A DNA stretch of 49,486 nucleotides from a virus: IMG/VR virus record IMGVR_UViG_3300033997_000544, positions 1 through 49,486 of that record; one strand, written 5' to 3'. The position numbers were made by a program, and so were the translations under genes. Below are positions 4,718-34,704 of this stretch, piece by piece; position 1 is the stretch's first letter, and each line of letters starts with the position of its first letter. A model generated the notes under the pieces. It did not search any database, was not told the origin of the DNA, and saw only the letters and a program-made list of their open reading frames with translations.

Positions 4718-5208
4718 GGCTGCACCTCGGCGACGGCCTGCCGGTACAGATCAGGCCAGGTTTGCGGGTGCGGCTTGCCTGGCCGCCAGGTGCGCAAGTA
4801 CAGCGCGAGGGCTGCATCGGCATCGCCCACGGCGGGCAGCTTGCCGGGATCGGTCCACAGCAGCAGCCGCGCGACGCCAGCGGCCAGGATGTCGTCGTAT
4901 TCCAGGGCGCCGTAGATCGCGTCCGGGTCGCACGCCACACTGCGGGCCTTGCACAGCGCGGCCAGGTGGCCCTTGCTCGCCGGGTGCAGGTAGACGCCCC
5001 ACACGCCGCCACGGCTCGCACGCGTGCCCTTTTCGAATTGCCAGAAGCCGCGCGCCGGACCACCGATCTGCCGCCGATGCACGAAACGGCTTTCCTGCAG
5101 GCCGATCGCCAGCAGCATGCAGCGCGCCTGCGGCGTGTCCATGGCGGCCGGCAGCAGGGCCAGCGCCGGGCTGATCGCAGTCGAAGTGATTTCCTTAAGA
5201 TCCATCAT
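4714..5208 (-). CDS. Endolysin, lytic transglycosylase-like
   Basis: The 164-aa product looks like a phage lysozyme of the transglycosylase-like type. GLQESRF (Glu39 probable catalytic acid) and GGPARGFWQFE (49-59) match the E-S and G-x-x-GFWQ motifs of that fold. It would cleave peptidoglycan in the periplasm after holin action. Two adjacent ATGs (5208, 5205) are possible; a longer frame to 5292 has no ribosome site and covers the holin gene. It lies between a holin and Rz, as expected for a lysis cassette. Confidence 0.85.
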   Translation of the reverse strand: MMDLKEITSTAISPALALLPAAMDTPQARCMLLAIGLQESRFVHRRQIGGPARGFWQFEKGTRASRGGVWGVYLHPASKGHLAALCKARSVACDPDAIYGALEYDDILAAGVARLLLWTDPGKLPAVGDADAALALYLRTWRPGKPHPQTWPDLYRQAVAEVQP

Positions 5209-5504
5209 TGCCTCACACTCACAATGCACGCAACATTGCCTTGCGCGCGATAAACGAGGACCGCCAGCAAGAGCGCCACCACGGTCTGCCACACGGTCAC
5301 CTGCTCATGCTGGACAAGCACGTCCAGCGCCTGGCCACCCGTGCCGACGATCAGCATGTAGGCCACCCAGGACATGCCGCGCCGGAACCGCGCGCCGTTG
5401 CGCCGGTAGAGCAGCAGGCGCACGGCCGACGCGATGTTGGCAGCGACAAAAAGAAAGGCCACCAAAATGTGGTGGCCTGATGCGATCACTTCTGTGGGTT
5501 GCAT
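5205..5504 (-). CDS. Three-TM phage holin
   Basis: The 99-aa protein has three hydrophobic segments at about residues 12-33, 44-62 and 70-90, separated by the basic loop LLYRRNGARFRRG. This matches the putative three-TM phage holin family (Phage_holin_3 type). It should form inner-membrane lesions that release or activate the endolysin encoded immediately downstream. A second holin-like gene lies directly upstream, so one of the two may serve as antiholin. Confidence 0.82.
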   Translation of the reverse strand: MQPTEVIASGHHILVAFLFVAANIASAVRLLLYRRNGARFRRGMSWVAYMLIVGTGGQALDVLVQHEQVTVWQTVVALLLAVLVYRAQGNVACIVSVRQ

Positions 5505-5505
5505 G

Positions 5506-5850
5506 TCAGCCCCCTTTCCTGAAGACCGAAAAATCCAGCGCCTTGATCTTCTCGATTGCCGTCAGCGCCGCCGTGACAACGAGTGCCGCCGCGCCGAATG
5601 CAGCAATCGCCGTCTCTTTGATCGGAGTCAGCCCGACGACATCAGGCGCGGCAAGATAGCCGATCACGAATGAGATTGCCCAATAAGCAAACCGCGACAA
5701 CACGCCACCCTCCTTCCGCGACACAACGAAAAGCGACGCTCCGGCGAAGGCCCCGATCAACGCGTTCCCATCGATCCCCGGCAACAGTCCAGCGAGCGTC
5801 ACGCCCGCTGCCGCTGCCGCCACAACACCCGTGCTTGCAGGTTCTGCCAT
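5506..5850 (-). CDS. Second holin-like membrane protein
   Basis: ATG 5850 gives a 114-aa protein with about four hydrophobic segments (8-24, 28-45, 53-70, 80-98) and the conserved-looking LLPGIDGNALIGAFAGA. It resembles another putative phage holin family (Phage_holin_8-like). A longer in-frame start at 5928 lacks support. Position next to a different holin and the endolysin fits a holin/antiholin or two-holin arrangement. Confidence 0.8.
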   Translation of the reverse strand: MAEPASTGVVAAAAAGVTLAGLLPGIDGNALIGAFAGASLFVVSRKEGGVLSRFAYWAISFVIGYLAAPDVVGLTPIKETAIAAFGAAALVVTAALTAIEKIKALDFSVFRKGG

Positions 5851-5882
5851 GTGATTTCCTATTCTGTGATGCTGCGGATTTT

Positions 5883-6215
5883 CTAGGTCGGCTGAACGTC
5901 CGTCAGCCATGCGGGCAACGGCCCCCATCCTGGATAGCTGACATCCTTGTCACCGGCCCTCTCGACAGCACCGAGGACATAGGGCGCTTTCGTGGCCGTG
6001 ACCCAGAGCGGCACGGCGCGGTAGTCCTGCACAGATTTCCAGGCGTCGCCGACGCGACGCGCAACGCGGCCCGCAGGTGCCGGCGGCGGCGCGTCGGTGT
6101 ATGCGCCGTATGGGACGTTGTAGACGCCCTCGTCGAGTTCGAATTCGTGCGCGACAGTCTCATACAGATACAGGCCGTCCCGGTCAGTCTGATAAACGGT
6201 GATGTGCTTGTGCAT
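5883..6215 (-). CDS. Tail-fibre-associated protein (assembly chaperone or accessory)
   Basis: ATG 6215 is preceded by GAGGCAAG and gives 110 aa. The sequence begins MHKHITVYQTDRDGLYLYET and ends in PGWGPLPAWLTDV. Small proteins of this type are commonly encoded right after the tail fibre gene and are annotated as fibre assembly or accessory proteins. I cannot identify a catalytic motif. It lies seven bases after the fibre gene on the same strand. Confidence 0.7.
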   Translation of the reverse strand: MHKHITVYQTDRDGLYLYETVAHEFELDEGVYNVPYGAYTDAPPPAPAGRVARRVGDAWKSVQDYRAVPLWVTATKAPYVLGAVERAGDKDVSYPGWGPLPAWLTDVQPT

Positions 6216-27165: not shown

Positions 27166-27786
27166 TCACCCTGGAAGTTCGGCCAGCTTTGCCGCGCTGA
27201 ATGCAGGTTCCCAAGTGGCCAGGTCTTCATTCTGCGGCCGCCAGGGCAGCGCTTCACCGCGCGCCAGCCGCGCCAGCGCCTCGGAAAAGAGCCGCAGACC
27301 CAACGGGGCAAGATCGCGGCGCCACAGCACCGCCGCCGTGTCCCCCGGCAGGACATGACACCAGCCCTGCACGATGATCGGCCCCGTGTCGGCGCCGTCG
27401 TCCATCCGGTACAAGGTGCCGCCGGTGACGGGCTCGCGCATGTGCAAGGCCCACCGGATAGCGTCGCGCCCGCGGTGACGCGGCAACAGCGACGGGTGAT
27501 AGCCCAGCGCGCCGTGCTTCGCCCGCGCCCGCGCCGCCCCGTCGATGAAGCAATGCGCGTGCGCCGCCAGCAGAACATCGCATCCCGCCGGGACGTCGCG
27601 CGCCACCAGCCGCCCGCGTACCGTGCGCACGGGAACGCCCAACTGCTGCGCGGCGGCGTAGAGCCGGTCGTATTCCTCGCCCACTGCGGGCGGTGCTGCA
27701 GCGGCCACCACCTGGTGGCCCTCCGCGATGCACTGGCGGAGCAGCTCCGCGCCCAGCCACTTTTGGCCCACGATCATCACGCGCAT
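27166..27786 (-). CDS. Formyltransferase-like protein of the Com operon
   Basis: The 206-aa protein has the formyltransferase fold: a Rossmann-like start (MRVMIVGQKWLGAELLRQC), YHPSLLPRHRGRDAIRW (residues 96-112) and DDGADTGPIIVQ (129-140). Canonical members use Asn-x-His plus Asp; here His97 and Asp133 are present but the Asn position is Gly95. It could transfer a one-carbon group from a folate, possibly onto a modified base or an intermediate. It overlaps the ABC-GNAT gene by 10 bases. A role in DNA modification is inferred from context; a sugar- or amino-formylating role is also possible. Confidence 0.8.
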   Translation of the reverse strand: MRVMIVGQKWLGAELLRQCIAEGHQVVAAAAPPAVGEEYDRLYAAAQQLGVPVRTVRGRLVARDVPAGCDVLLAAHAHCFIDGAARARAKHGALGYHPSLLPRHRGRDAIRWALHMREPVTGGTLYRMDDGADTGPIIVQGWCHVLPGDTAAVLWRRDLAPLGLRLFSEALARLARGEALPWRPQNEDLATWEPAFSAAKLAELPG

Positions 27787-28898
27787 GCCGGCTCCCCCAG
27801 GTAGCGGAAGCCCTGCACGGCGCGGAAATGGCCGCCGTAGCCGCTGCCGGCGGTCTGCTGGCCCTTACGCGCCGCGCTTTGGCGCAGCGTAGCCACGCAC
27901 CGCGCCTTGCTTTCCCCATGGAGTGAGCCAGATACCTGCGTCCACCGCCGATCGCGGCGCAGCGCCGCTGCCAGGCCGGGGTGGCTGGTGTGGAACAGCG
28001 TCCGCAGAGGCAAGCCGTACCTGTTCTTGCCCGCCAGCCAGGCCGCGCAGACCGCATTCAGGAAGCGCATGCCCACGCCGGCGCCCTGCCATTCCGGCAT
28101 GACCACCAGGCGGCAGGCGCGAGCTTCGACCAGGCCCGGCCTGGTGCTGACGGCCAGGTGCGCGACAGGCTCGCCGCCGATCCAGGCCACGTAGTTCGAG
28201 GCCGCGATCATCTTGGGCAGCTTCAGATAGTGATGCGGCTCAAAATGCGGCCACCACCGCCAGTCGGTCTGTTCGATGTCCACGTCCAGGCGCGGCCGGC
28301 GTCGAACCGACCCCCGATCAAACTGGCCGGTCGCCGTGTCAAACACCCAGTCCGGCTGCAACCAATCCAGCACGTCGTAGTGGCAGGACAGCAGCACGGC
28401 CTGGCCGCCGGTGCGCCGCCACGCCTTGGCGAATGCACCGGCGCCGACGCGCGCAATCTGCCGATCGACCACAGAGCTGAACTCGTCGACGACCGTCAGC
28501 GCCGGCGCCTCGACGACCAGGCGCGCCAGGTTGGCGCGGAATTGCTCGCCGTTGGACAGGACGCCGTAGGGCCGCAGCCACGCGGGCACGCTGCCCAGGC
28601 CGACCGCCGACAGCGCGGCAGTGACCTCGTCGAAAGCGCCAGTAGGCGCGATCGCGTCGATGATCGGCGTGTCTGCCGGCCAGGCCGGCGCGTACAGCGG
28701 CGCAATCGCGCGGCCGATGCTGGTCTTGCCTGAGCCGGACGGCCCCACCACGACGCCAATGCGCCAGTCCTCGTCGTCGATCGCCAGGTCCACGTCCAGG
28801 TCGAAAGCGGCGCCCGAATCAACGTTGAAGAGGGATTTCACGCGCGCCGCGCGGTAGCTTTCCGCTTCCGGGCAGCGGTGTTGAATGGACACTTTCAT
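27777..28898 (-). CDS. ABC-type ATPase fused to GNAT acyltransferase (possible Mom-type)
   Basis: The 373-aa protein joins two domains. Residues 20-195 form an ABC ATPase: Walker A GPSGSGKTS (52-60), signature-like LSNGEQ (114-119), Walker B ALTVVDE (133-139), H-loop His173 (LLSCHYD). Residues 205-335 are GNAT-like: EPHHYLKLPK (220-229), a beta core WIGGEPVAHLAV, and acyl-CoA motif A VVMPEWQGAGVGMRFL (265-280). There are no membrane segments, so it is not a transporter. In phage Mu the gene controlled by Com is Mom, a GNAT-fold protein that modifies adenine; this would be a Mom-type enzyme with an ATPase partner built in. The function is inference. Confidence 0.78.
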   Translation of the reverse strand: MKVSIQHRCPEAESYRAARVKSLFNVDSGAAFDLDVDLAIDDEDWRIGVVVGPSGSGKTSIGRAIAPLYAPAWPADTPIIDAIAPTGAFDEVTAALSAVGLGSVPAWLRPYGVLSNGEQFRANLARLVVEAPALTVVDEFSSVVDRQIARVGAGAFAKAWRRTGGQAVLLSCHYDVLDWLQPDWVFDTATGQFDRGSVRRRPRLDVDIEQTDWRWWPHFEPHHYLKLPKMIAASNYVAWIGGEPVAHLAVSTRPGLVEARACRLVVMPEWQGAGVGMRFLNAVCAAWLAGKNRYGLPLRTLFHTSHPGLAAALRRDRRWTQVSGSLHGESKARCVATLRQSAARKGQQTAGSGYGGHFRAVQGFRYLGEPACA

Positions 28899-29071
28899 AC
28901 GGCCACCACCTTCAGGCGGTGGCCCTGTGCGCGCAGCTCGTCGAATACGCGCTGCTGGTGACCTTCGTCATCGCACAACACGATCACGCCGAAGCGCGGC
29001 TTGTACTTGAAACCGTTGGCGCCCGGCTGCTTACGCGCCGGCGCCGTGGTGATATGGCCGTTGTCCTCCAT
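28895..29071 (-). CDS. 58-aa protein between Com and the ABC-GNAT gene
   Basis: ATG 29071 has AGAGGAA eight bases upstream and the ORF ends with an ATGA overlap onto the next gene. It overlaps com by 41 bases in another frame. The sequence has a short charged start, then FKYKPRFGVIVLCDDEG (residues 22-38) and HRLKVVAV at the end, a compact alpha/beta pattern. I do not know a function; it may be a partner of the ABC-GNAT protein. Its start codon lies in a predicted RNA hairpin, so it would be the first target of Com control. Confidence 0.72.
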   Translation of the reverse strand: MEDNGHITTAPARKQPGANGFKYKPRFGVIVLCDDEGHQQRVFDELRAQGHRLKVVAV

Positions 29072-29255
29072 GCCTGTGTTCCTCTGGGCTGGATGCTCGA
29101 CGGCATGCTGGTTTGTGGCTCTCGGCGCTCTGGGCGCTCTCGGCCATCGAAAACGCGTTCACGGTCTTGCACCGCGAACATTTGATACTGAGCCGGGCAT
29201 AGCCGGCGGCTTCGGCGAGCTTGCGCCCGCAATTGACACAACGAACGGTTTCCAT
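29031..29255 (-). CDS. com: Com-like zinc-finger translational regulator
   Basis: The 74-aa protein starts METVRCVNCGRKLAEA, and Cys6-x2-Cys9 with Cys26-x2-Cys29 (IKCSRCKTVN) forms the zinc knuckle of the Mu Com family. In Mu, Com binds mom mRNA and opens a stem-loop so that mom is translated. Here com overlaps the next ORF by 41 bases in a different frame, as com and mom overlap in Mu. ATG 29255 gives the family start; GTG 29261 is a possible alternative. The tail after residue 40 is His/Arg-rich and not conserved-looking. Downstream genes are a putative modification set. Confidence 0.85.
   Translation of the reverse strand: METVRCVNCGRKLAEAAGYARLSIKCSRCKTVNAFSMAESAQSAESHKPACRRASSPEEHRHGGQRPYHHGAGA
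29054..29106 (-). promoter_or_regulatory. Predicted mRNA stem-loop over the 58-aa ORF start
   Basis: On the minus-strand mRNA, AUGCCGU (29106-29100) can pair with ACGGCCAU (29061-29054, one bulged C), and UCCAGCC (29093-29087) with GGC-A-UGGA (29074-29067, bulged A). The 12-base apical loop holds the Shine-Dalgarno AGAGGAA, and the AUG at 29071-29069 lies in the inner stem. It lies inside the 3' part of com. The design matches the translation-inhibitory stem-loop opened by Com in phage Mu. The pairing was done by eye, with no energy calculation. Confidence 0.5.
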
Positions 29256-32228: not shown

Positions 32229-32803
32229 TACGCCATCTCCTTCCGTTCCAGGTGCTCGTATGCGTCCCACATGCGCAGACTCGCCAGGCGCGCGATATCC
32301 ACCGCGGCAGCGGGGCTGATGGGCTCGGCGCCACGGCACGGCTTTGCCGGCCGCCGCACGCGTATCCGCAATTCGCTGCCGGCGTCGGCCAGCAGCAACA
32401 CGCCAGACGCCGGCGAACCCAGCGAATCCAGCAGGTCGTCCGACCAGATGTTGGCGGGCATCGCGTAGTAGTGCTTCCAGACCTTCGGCGGCCATGTGCG
32501 CAGCTCGAATTCGCGGGCGTAGATATTGCGGCGCCGAATCAGGCGCCCATTCTCGTCGTGTTCTTCCACGCAGCGCGGCGCGCCGACATAGCGCTGGTGC
32601 CACCACTTCGTCTTCGCGGCGTCGGCCTTTAGGTCGGCGCGGCTGATCTTGATCTCCACGTCGATGAGCCGCAGATTCTCCGTGACCGCCAGCAGGTCGC
32701 ATTCGTGGCCCGTCCATATGCAGTTGGGGACCACCACCAGGTACTTCCGGTTGAAGGTCTGGCGCGCCAGCGCGCGGCCGATTGTTTGCTCGGACCAGTT
32801 CAC
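32228..32803 (-). CDS. PD-(D/E)XK nuclease-like protein
   Basis: The GTG at 32803 overlaps the methyltransferase stop (GTGA). The 191-aa protein shows HECDLLAVTENLRLIDVEIKISRADL (residues 33-58), with Asp35 and the VEIK segment fitting a restriction-type PD-(D/E)XK core, and resembles MmcB-like DNA repair nucleases. It sits directly behind a DNA methyltransferase, which would fit a restriction pair, but the methyltransferase target is unknown and repair or replication are equally likely. Confidence 0.72.
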   Translation of the reverse strand: MNWSEQTIGRALARQTFNRKYLVVVPNCIWTGHECDLLAVTENLRLIDVEIKISRADLKADAAKTKWWHQRYVGAPRCVEEHDENGRLIRRRNIYAREFELRTWPPKVWKHYYAMPANIWSDDLLDSLGSPASGVLLLADAGSELRIRVRRPAKPCRGAEPISPAAAVDIARLASLRMWDAYEHLERKEMA

Positions 32804-34704
32804 GCCCCCTCCCCGCCGCGCACGGCCAGCGCCGTGACGATCGGCCGCACCCAGATGGGCGTCGACGAAAGCTGGAACGATTCGCCGGCGCGCGACAGCA
32901 GAATGGCCCGGCCGATTTCCTCGGCCATGGCCTTCGCGGCCTTTCGCGGCACCGCGTTGCCGATGCGCTCGCGGTGGGCGCTGTCAGAAATTCCTTCCAT
33001 CTGGAACACTTCGCCGCGCTCTTCGGCCTCGGCGTAGTCGTCGGGGTCGTAGATGCTCTGTAGGGCCGCCAGCTCCAGCGTGGTGAATGGCCGGTGCCAG
33101 GTGCCGTCCTCTGCCACAATCCGGCAAACCAGCTTGTCAGTGGCCGCCGGCAGCGCTGGAACATTTCCTGGAACATCGCCGCCAGAATGTGTTCCAGCGT
33201 TCCAATCGCCCCCGTGCGCCGCCGCGTCGGCCGGAACATATCGTGGGTCCGCGACGGACCATGAACCGTTGTCGTGGCAGGCCGACGCCGACACGGCGCC
33301 GACATGCTTGTCCCAGGCGGCGACGCCGTAATGCCCGGCAGTCAGGTAGTGGTCGCCGCGGTCGCGGGCTAGGCCGGGCCGCGGGTCGGCCACGGCGAAA
33401 GCCCCATTTGCATAGCCGGCGATCACGGCATGGGAGTGTTCCGCCCAGTCCGCAGTATGGAATTTCCCGTGCAGCTTGCTGGCCTCCGGGCCGCCACGCG
33501 GATCCGCGACGCATTGCCCGGTGCCATGGGCGCCGGTCACGGCGCGCGCCGCGTCGTCGTAGCGCACGATGCGAAACTCGTTGCTGTGCTTGGCAGGGCC
33601 GTGGTGGCGCGGGTCGGCGACGCTGTAGGCGCCCTGCCCCGGCCCTTGCTGGCCGGCAATCGCGCCGGTTGAGGCATCCCAGCGGCGCACGCCGTAGGCC
33701 TGGCCGTCCTTCCACGCGGCCGACGGGTCGAAACGAGGATCCGCGACCGAGAATGCCCCGTTGAGCGGGTGGCTGCGGCCGGCGATCACGCCGGCGCTGT
33801 CCTGCATCGAATGCACGCCCAGGGCACCACGGCGCATTTCCGACACCAGTAGGTAGTCCTGCAGATAGCCGTCCCGGACAGCCAGGCGGTTCAGCGTGCG
33901 CCAGTCGCCGCCAGCTTCGACGAACGCCAAACGTACCCAGGTCTTCCAGCTCAACCGCGGAACGCGGTGCATCGGGCCGGCCCGCAGGTCGCCAGGCAGG
34001 TGCATGCGGCCCAGGATCTCGCCCACGGCGCGCAGCGGGCGCTTGGGCGGTTCATAAATGAACGCCGGCACCTTCTCGGCGTGGCGCGCGACCAAGAGGA
34101 AGCGCTTGCGGCTCTGCGCCAGGCCGCCCAGCTCGCCGCAATCGTGGGCGGTCTCGCGCACCACGTAGCCGTAGTGGCGCAGCAGCTGGACGATCTGGTC
34201 CAGGAAGTGCCGGCCGCGCGTGGCGATGCGCGGCACGTTCTCGAAGAGGATCACCTCGACCGGGTCGTCCTTCCAGGCCTCCAGGCACAGCCAGATTCCG
34301 CGCAGCGTCAATTCGTTGAGCGCCTGGTACTTCGCGGTCAGGCTGCGCGCATGCGACAGCAGGCCCGAGAAGCCTTTGCAGGGCGCCGAGAGGAATAGGA
34401 TGTTCGGTCGGCGGCCGCCAGCAGCTGCGCGCACGTCGGCGGGCAAGGCCTCGACCCAGCCCGGCGGCGGCGGATGCCCGTGGAAAGCCGTGTACTGCGC
34501 CCGGCTGAACATATCGCGCACAGTGCAGGGCACGCCGGTGAAGCGCAGGAAGTCGGCCGCGCCGTCCGGGTCGACGTCGATGCCGCCCAGGCACACCATG
34601 CGGCCGCGCATTCCCGGGATCTCGGGCTGCGCTTCTTGCATGCCCGCGGCGCCGATGCCGGCCCCGGAGAACAGGCCAAAGTGGGTGATTTCGGATTCAA
34701 TCAT
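32800..34704 (-). CDS. C5 cytosine methyltransferase with repeated VADPR modules
   Basis: The 634-aa protein has all main C5 motifs: I (HFGLFSGAGIG, residues 8-18), IV with catalytic Cys109 (SAPCKGFSG), VI ENV (155-157), VIII (AQSRKRF) and the end motif GNAVP. Between VIII and the last motifs, five copies of a roughly 40-residue unit with V-A-D-P-R (at 320, 362, 399, 438, 484) fill the usual target-recognition region. Ordinary C5 enzymes are about 330-450 aa. The enzyme likely protects phage DNA from host restriction. Coupled to the CII-like gene before it (ATGA). Confidence 0.9.
   Translation of the reverse strand: MIESEITHFGLFSGAGIGAAGMQEAQPEIPGMRGRMVCLGGIDVDPDGAADFLRFTGVPCTVRDMFSRAQYTAFHGHPPPPGWVEALPADVRAAAGGRRPNILFLSAPCKGFSGLLSHARSLTAKYQALNELTLRGIWLCLEAWKDDPVEVILFENVPRIATRGRHFLDQIVQLLRHYGYVVRETAHDCGELGGLAQSRKRFLLVARHAEKVPAFIYEPPKRPLRAVGEILGRMHLPGDLRAGPMHRVPRLSWKTWVRLAFVEAGGDWRTLNRLAVRDGYLQDYLLVSEMRRGALGVHSMQDSAGVIAGRSHPLNGAFSVADPRFDPSAAWKDGQAYGVRRWDASTGAIAGQQGPGQGAYSVADPRHHGPAKHSNEFRIVRYDDAARAVTGAHGTGQCVADPRGGPEASKLHGKFHTADWAEHSHAVIAGYANGAFAVADPRPGLARDRGDHYLTAGHYGVAAWDKHVGAVSASACHDNGSWSVADPRYVPADAAAHGGDWNAGTHSGGDVPGNVPALPAATDKLVCRIVAEDGTWHRPFTTLELAALQSIYDPDDYAEAEERGEVFQMEGISDSAHRERIGNAVPRKAAKAMAEEIGRAILLSRAGESFQLSSTPIWVRPIVTALAVRGGEGA

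Follow-up and report, generated by a model that had tools for sequence, protein, structure and literature searches.

What does a com gene switch on when the gene behind it is not mom, and what kind of chemistry might result? This question is raised by four genes on the minus strand of a virus record (IMG/VR IMGVR_UViG_3300033997_000544), whose 49,486 nucleotides were analysed at full length and are referred to below as the window. The original prediction read these genes as a com-led operon that makes a DNA base modification with an ATPase-coupled acyltransferase plus one-carbon transferase. Genes for sheath, baseplate and tape-measure proteins in the window point to a contractile-tailed phage.

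Results

The four open reading frames were found where they had been predicted, and the Com, ABC, GNAT and Formyl_trans_N families were all matched. The first gene, com (29031..29255, minus strand), encodes a zinc-ribbon RNA-binding translational activator (CVNC...CSRC; PF10122, E=1.5e-7; phrog_6417, 5e-14), which scores 31.2 bits against a Pfam cut-off of 22.9, carries the CxxC...CxxC ribbon and belongs to the family that Mu Com matches too. It is followed on the same strand by orf58 (28895..29071), whose sole family match among Pfam and PHROGs profiles is the unnamed phrog_28816 (1.9e-20), by the gene for an ABC-ATPase/GNAT fusion of 373 amino acids (27777..28898; ABC_tran 4e-7, Acetyltransf_1 1.9e-4), a presumed DNA acyltransferase hereafter called ABC-GNAT, and by FT (27166..27786), which encodes a formyltransferase-like protein of 206 amino acids (PF00551 Formyl_trans_N, 9.5e-19). 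Consecutive genes overlap by 41, 4 and 10 bases; the outer two values are as predicted, and the middle one replaces a predicted 3. Downstream of FT lie genes for a phage metallopeptidase (26515-27159, minus strand; PhageMetallopep PF18894, 2.8e-40; its PHROGs label 'transposase' is probably wrong), for DUF2280 and then for the terminase large subunit. The same phage carries a C5 cytosine methylase-like gene (32800-34704, minus strand; PF00145, 1.2e-11), so that two DNA modifications may coexist in it.

Relatives of ABC-GNAT numbered 525 in the viral-contig scan and 211 in the genome scan, and 160 loci were kept. Searching the neighbourhoods for Com plus ABC-GNAT, as had been proposed, showed that the gene order recurs beyond chance: it is present in 80 viral loci (ABC-GNAT at 63-97% identity, orf58 in 80/80, com in 69/80) and, as com-orf58-ABC-GNAT-FT, in bacterial genomes, the closest bacterial ABC-GNAT copy in the genome scan coming from Achromobacter (95%). 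An orf58-like domain lies directly upstream of ABC-GNAT in all but 2 of the 160 kept loci. Among loci with at least 900 bases downstream, FT adjoins ABC-GNAT in 98 of the 114 close relatives but in 0 of 12 distant ones, and the two genes usually overlap or abut, in viral and prophage loci from several phyla. On a tree made with the quick version of the search, the close relatives, drawn from several phyla, fall together in a single, strongly supported branch within which FT has been lost here and there, and the presence of FT is clustered. In the 16 of 114 close relatives without adjacent FT, the GNAT may use acetyl-CoA, or some of these loci may have decayed. A search for FT in the genomes of FT-less loci gave mostly weaker matches, probably ordinary host formyltransferases, and a few phage-type copies; G008, for example, has one beside its locus. 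Separately, one locus (L215, 5358-5711) holds a decaying copy with com and orf58 retained and ABC-GNAT broken after 117 amino acids. The cassette is placed behind tail genes or close to a contig end in many viral contigs, as well as in Komp_PAO1_1, a Mu-like phage; this placement resembles that of com-mom at the right end of phage Mu. Altogether, the four genes are confirmed as real and conserved in this order.

At the com/orf58 junction, a candidate Com-binding RNA hairpin, AUGC-CGUCGA-GCAU (29093..29106), was found as an exact match 35 nt upstream of the orf58 start. The Com site defined by SELEX is CC(N)2-3GAG in a hexaloop, beside an inhibitory structure in which the mom start codon lies (PMC6483171), and the window hairpin fits this motif, hexaloop included. 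In phage Mu, the GUG start of mom is preceded at ~30 nt by the hairpin AUGC-CUGCGA-GCAU; the two hairpins are read in different com frames, so that coding does not explain their likeness. Of 91 non-redundant com+orf58 loci among the relatives, 44 carry a hairpin NNGC-CNNN(G/A)A-GCNN between the two genes, compared with a mean of 1.0 and a maximum of 4 in dinucleotide shuffles, and the other 47, many of them alphaproteobacterial, have no perfect copy. The stem covaries: in segments picked on no criterion but the loop motif, 84% of cells are paired and 28 cells show two-sided changes, and the covariation score is reached in 0 of 500 shuffles. Furthermore, the 5' arm of the window hairpin can pair alternatively with the orf58 start, CAUGCC (29107-29102) with GGCAUG (29074-29069), in a putative inhibitory structure (29069..29107; fold z=-2.64 and -1.97) that is exclusive with the Com hairpin. 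Across the relatives, this arm-to-start pairing averages 5.49 bp, versus a mean of 4.79 and a maximum of 5.24 in 200 swapped controls. A conserved outer helix masking the ribosome site was seen in single cases only (L042, L002) and is not a general feature. The sequence patterns support a Com-controlled translational switch at this junction, and the predicted Com control of the operon is well borne out by the hairpin, its covariation and its match to the published site.

The same hairpin precedes DNA-modification genes in other phages. It lies 32-35 nt before D12 and N4/N6 methylases in Burkholderia phages Mana and KS5 and Pseudomonas phage Bise, and at the same distance before Mom-like genes in JD024 and PAN70. 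A syntenic sister phage (L219), whose flanks are 84-89% identical to the window, retains com and the hairpin, and there a C5 cytosine methylase (5001-6045) replaces orf58, ABC-GNAT and FT in a natural cassette swap. The occurrence of the hairpin before Mom and methylases elsewhere, together with this swap, argues for a role of the operon in DNA modification, which we regard as strongly supported, though indirectly. This part of the original prediction is upheld by the hairpin, by com beside DNA-modification genes and by the methylase swap; its wording of an ATPase-coupled acyltransferase plus one-carbon transferase is compatible with the domain content, as a putative chemistry. A search of the open literature for N-acyl DNA bases in phages returned nothing relevant.

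ABC-GNAT joins an ABC ATPase with full motifs to a GNAT domain, and Walker A, the LSxGE signature, Walker B DE, the H-loop and the GNAT QxxGxG are invariant in 33 homologues. Its AlphaFold model has a pLDDT of 83, and transporter ATPases were the only matches in a whole-protein fold search. Following an earlier paper, the account in PMC7824862 gives ABC ATPase-GNAT proteins as a predicted DNA acyl-modification system (Aravind group). By its domains, the window protein is a member of this family already predicted to acylate DNA, and is not Mom: it has no PF25680 match and an hhalign probability of 0.2%, although an HY motif occupies a similar GNAT-fold position in both. The gene of Tenacibaculum phage pT24 (tblastn E=2e-44 against the window ABC-GNAT) belongs to the same protein family with the same predicted role; no Com, orf58 or FT was found beside it, and the passages of PMC7824862 that describe ABC-GNAT make no mention of these three. 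The likeness to com-mom of phage Mu thus comprises the Com zinc ribbon, the overlap of com with the effector gene, the hairpin and the DNA-modification output, whereas the effector is Mom (PF25680) in Mu and ABC-GNAT with orf58 and FT in the window, presumably with different chemistry. Where ABC-GNAT matches Porphyromonas phages (BK068090, for example), the genes at the match carry the label 'acr candidate', which looks doubtful.

An HMM of orf58 matches the C-termini of ParB-like proteins (L055, L003, L068, L086, L091 and L085), which directly precede ABC-GNAT in Gordonia, Arthrobacter, Pseudoalteromonas and Rhodococcus phages and in viral contigs. From these matches, orf58 seems to be a partner domain of ABC-GNAT that has become detached, the stand-alone C-terminal domain of a ParB-like partner; this assignment is new here. 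Com-type loci have lost the ParB part, and Com stands upstream in its place. Elsewhere, an ASCH-domain gene (L089, 5078-5446; PF04266) and an ASCH-like ORF recognised by eye (L257, 5198-5632) adjoin ParB/ABC/GNAT genes, and each is possibly a modified-base reader.

Both by sequence and by fold, the best PDB relatives of FT are hydrolase domains of 10-formyl-THF dehydrogenase (FDH). H97, S99 and D133 are invariant in FT, giving the His/Ser/Asp triad of FDH, and the position two residues before the catalytic His is Gly in 106, Ala in 4, Ser in 3, Ile in 2 and Asn in none of 115 copies. The catalytic Asn of amine formyltransferases of the Fmt, GART and ArnA kind is thus absent throughout (0/115). 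FDH likewise lacks that Asn, its I104N variant has <10% hydrolase activity, and a thiol co-substrate is used (PMC4388273); in full-length FDH the thiol is that of the 4'-phosphopantetheine arm (PMC8748788). The FT-related N-terminal domain of HypX has been proposed to pass formyl to CoA, making formyl-CoA (PMC6802093). The closest relative of FT, the hydrolase domain of FDH (ALDH1L1), has thus lost the Asn, kept the triad and transfers formyl to a pantetheine thiol; FDH also has carrier and dehydrogenase domains, whereas the stand-alone FT of the phage operon has neither. Since the Asn is missing from all 115 copies, FT may transfer formyl to a thiol, for instance that of CoA. GNATs work from CoA thioesters. 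Taking this together with the thiol chemistry of the FDH type, we propose FT as the maker of the GNAT's acyl donor; its assignment as an FDH-type enzyme with a thiol acceptor, which may be CoA, is new here. FT homologues (L003, 1805-2452, and Gordonia phage relatives) are labelled 'tRNA-methyltransferase' in some Gordonia phages, which looks doubtful.

A different set of enzymes occupies the place of FT in another clade. In Rhodococcus phage Jace and its relatives (L085, 5074-6185; L227-L247), ABC-GNAT is immediately followed by genes for aspartate decarboxylase (PanD) and for a short class III CoA-transferase-like protein; the CoA-transferase-like gene is present after ABC-GNAT in 12 of 14 non-redundant Jace-type loci, with PanD also in 9. 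These loci share with the window the ABC-GNAT core and, as the tail of ParB, an orf58-like domain, but they have no Com, and the place of FT is taken by enzymes that would supply another acyl-CoA, a hint of a DNA modification with beta-alanyl or a similar group. A CoA-transferase at this position lends independent support to FT as an acyl-donor supplier, and suggests that exchangeable suppliers feed one DNA acyltransferase, the Jace finding being new here. In the SL25-type clade the gene after ABC-GNAT is usually terminase-like (by eye or position), so that the ABC-GNAT core may also function by itself, with acetyl-CoA as a possible donor.

Discussion

We consider it reasonably probable that the window holds a late operon switched by Com, in which FT passes formyl to a thiol or CoA and the GNAT uses it to N-acylate DNA and block restriction. 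Com would be made first, bind the hairpin between com and orf58 and free the orf58 start from the inhibitory fold, upon which orf58, ABC-GNAT and FT would be translated. Given its constant adjacency and its fusion to ParB-like partners, orf58 may serve as the adaptor of ABC-GNAT. FT would move formyl from 10-formyl-THF to a thiol, most probably that of CoA, whether or not bound to the GNAT. The GNAT domain would pass this acyl group on to an amino group of a DNA base, and the ABC domain might spend ATP on gripping, scanning or opening the DNA. The expected product is an N-acyl base, N-formyl or formyl-derived, that resists restriction; in related phages, aspartate decarboxylase and class III CoA-transferase would supply another acyl-CoA. 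More tentatively, and with rather less confidence, we extend this to a modular DNA acylation of phages, in which one ABC-GNAT is served by swappable suppliers of formyl-CoA or, perhaps, in Jace relatives, beta-alanyl-CoA, yielding N-formyl, N-beta-alanyl or similar bases, with Com as the general switch.

The part played by FT admits other readings. FT could do no more than hydrolyse 10-formyl-THF, or its substrate could be a small molecule. DNA might also be modified by a GNAT that uses acetyl-CoA or is Mom-like, FT acting separately by direct formylation of a base or sugar amine or on the folate pool. The canonical CoA motif of the GNAT and the lack of FT beside distant ABC-GNATs and beside 16 of the 114 close ones agree with this, but we hold it unlikely, since FT is confined to one clade and overlaps ABC-GNAT, the amine-formyltransferase Asn is absent from 115/115 FT copies, and in the Jace clade this position is occupied by another acyl-CoA enzyme.

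The target need not be DNA either. Many phage GNATs are described in PMC7824862 as predicted or shown to be protein-directed, and the labels 'tRNA-methyltransferase' and 'acr candidate' on some homologues would suit acylation of a host protein or RNA (restriction enzyme, RNA polymerase or tRNA). With Com preceding DNA methylases or Mom elsewhere, and a DNA methylase in the place of the cassette in the sister phage, such a target appears quite improbable. Still less credible, indeed very improbable, is that FT and ABC-GNAT are independent, unrelated cargo genes (morons) adjacent by chance: some loci do lack FT, but the same gene order, usually with overlapping or abutting genes, recurs across several phyla, in viruses as well as in prophages.

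That the ABC-GNAT family is predicted to acylate DNA was already known; new are the origin of orf58, the type of FT and the Jace suppliers. If the proposed Com-switched acylation is correct, it would be a new type of DNA base modification, with a DNA acyltransferase supplied by a dedicated folate enzyme, and would explain a large unannotated phage gene family (phrog_11143, phrog_9240, phrog_28816). N-formyl, N-beta-alanyl or similar bases, as the modular reading would have them, are not known in DNA. Since cultured phages with related cassettes exist, the question can be put to the test now; Pseudomonas phage Komp_PAO1_1 of laboratory strain PAO1, for one, has an ABC-GNAT 72% identical to that of the window, together with com, orf58 and FT. 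Com would then turn from a curiosity of Mu into a general marker of phage DNA-modification genes, and its hairpin motif could locate unannotated com genes. In several Pseudomonas phages (L222, L225 and L226, ~2001-2165), com genes that overlap a methylase or mom gene lack annotation.
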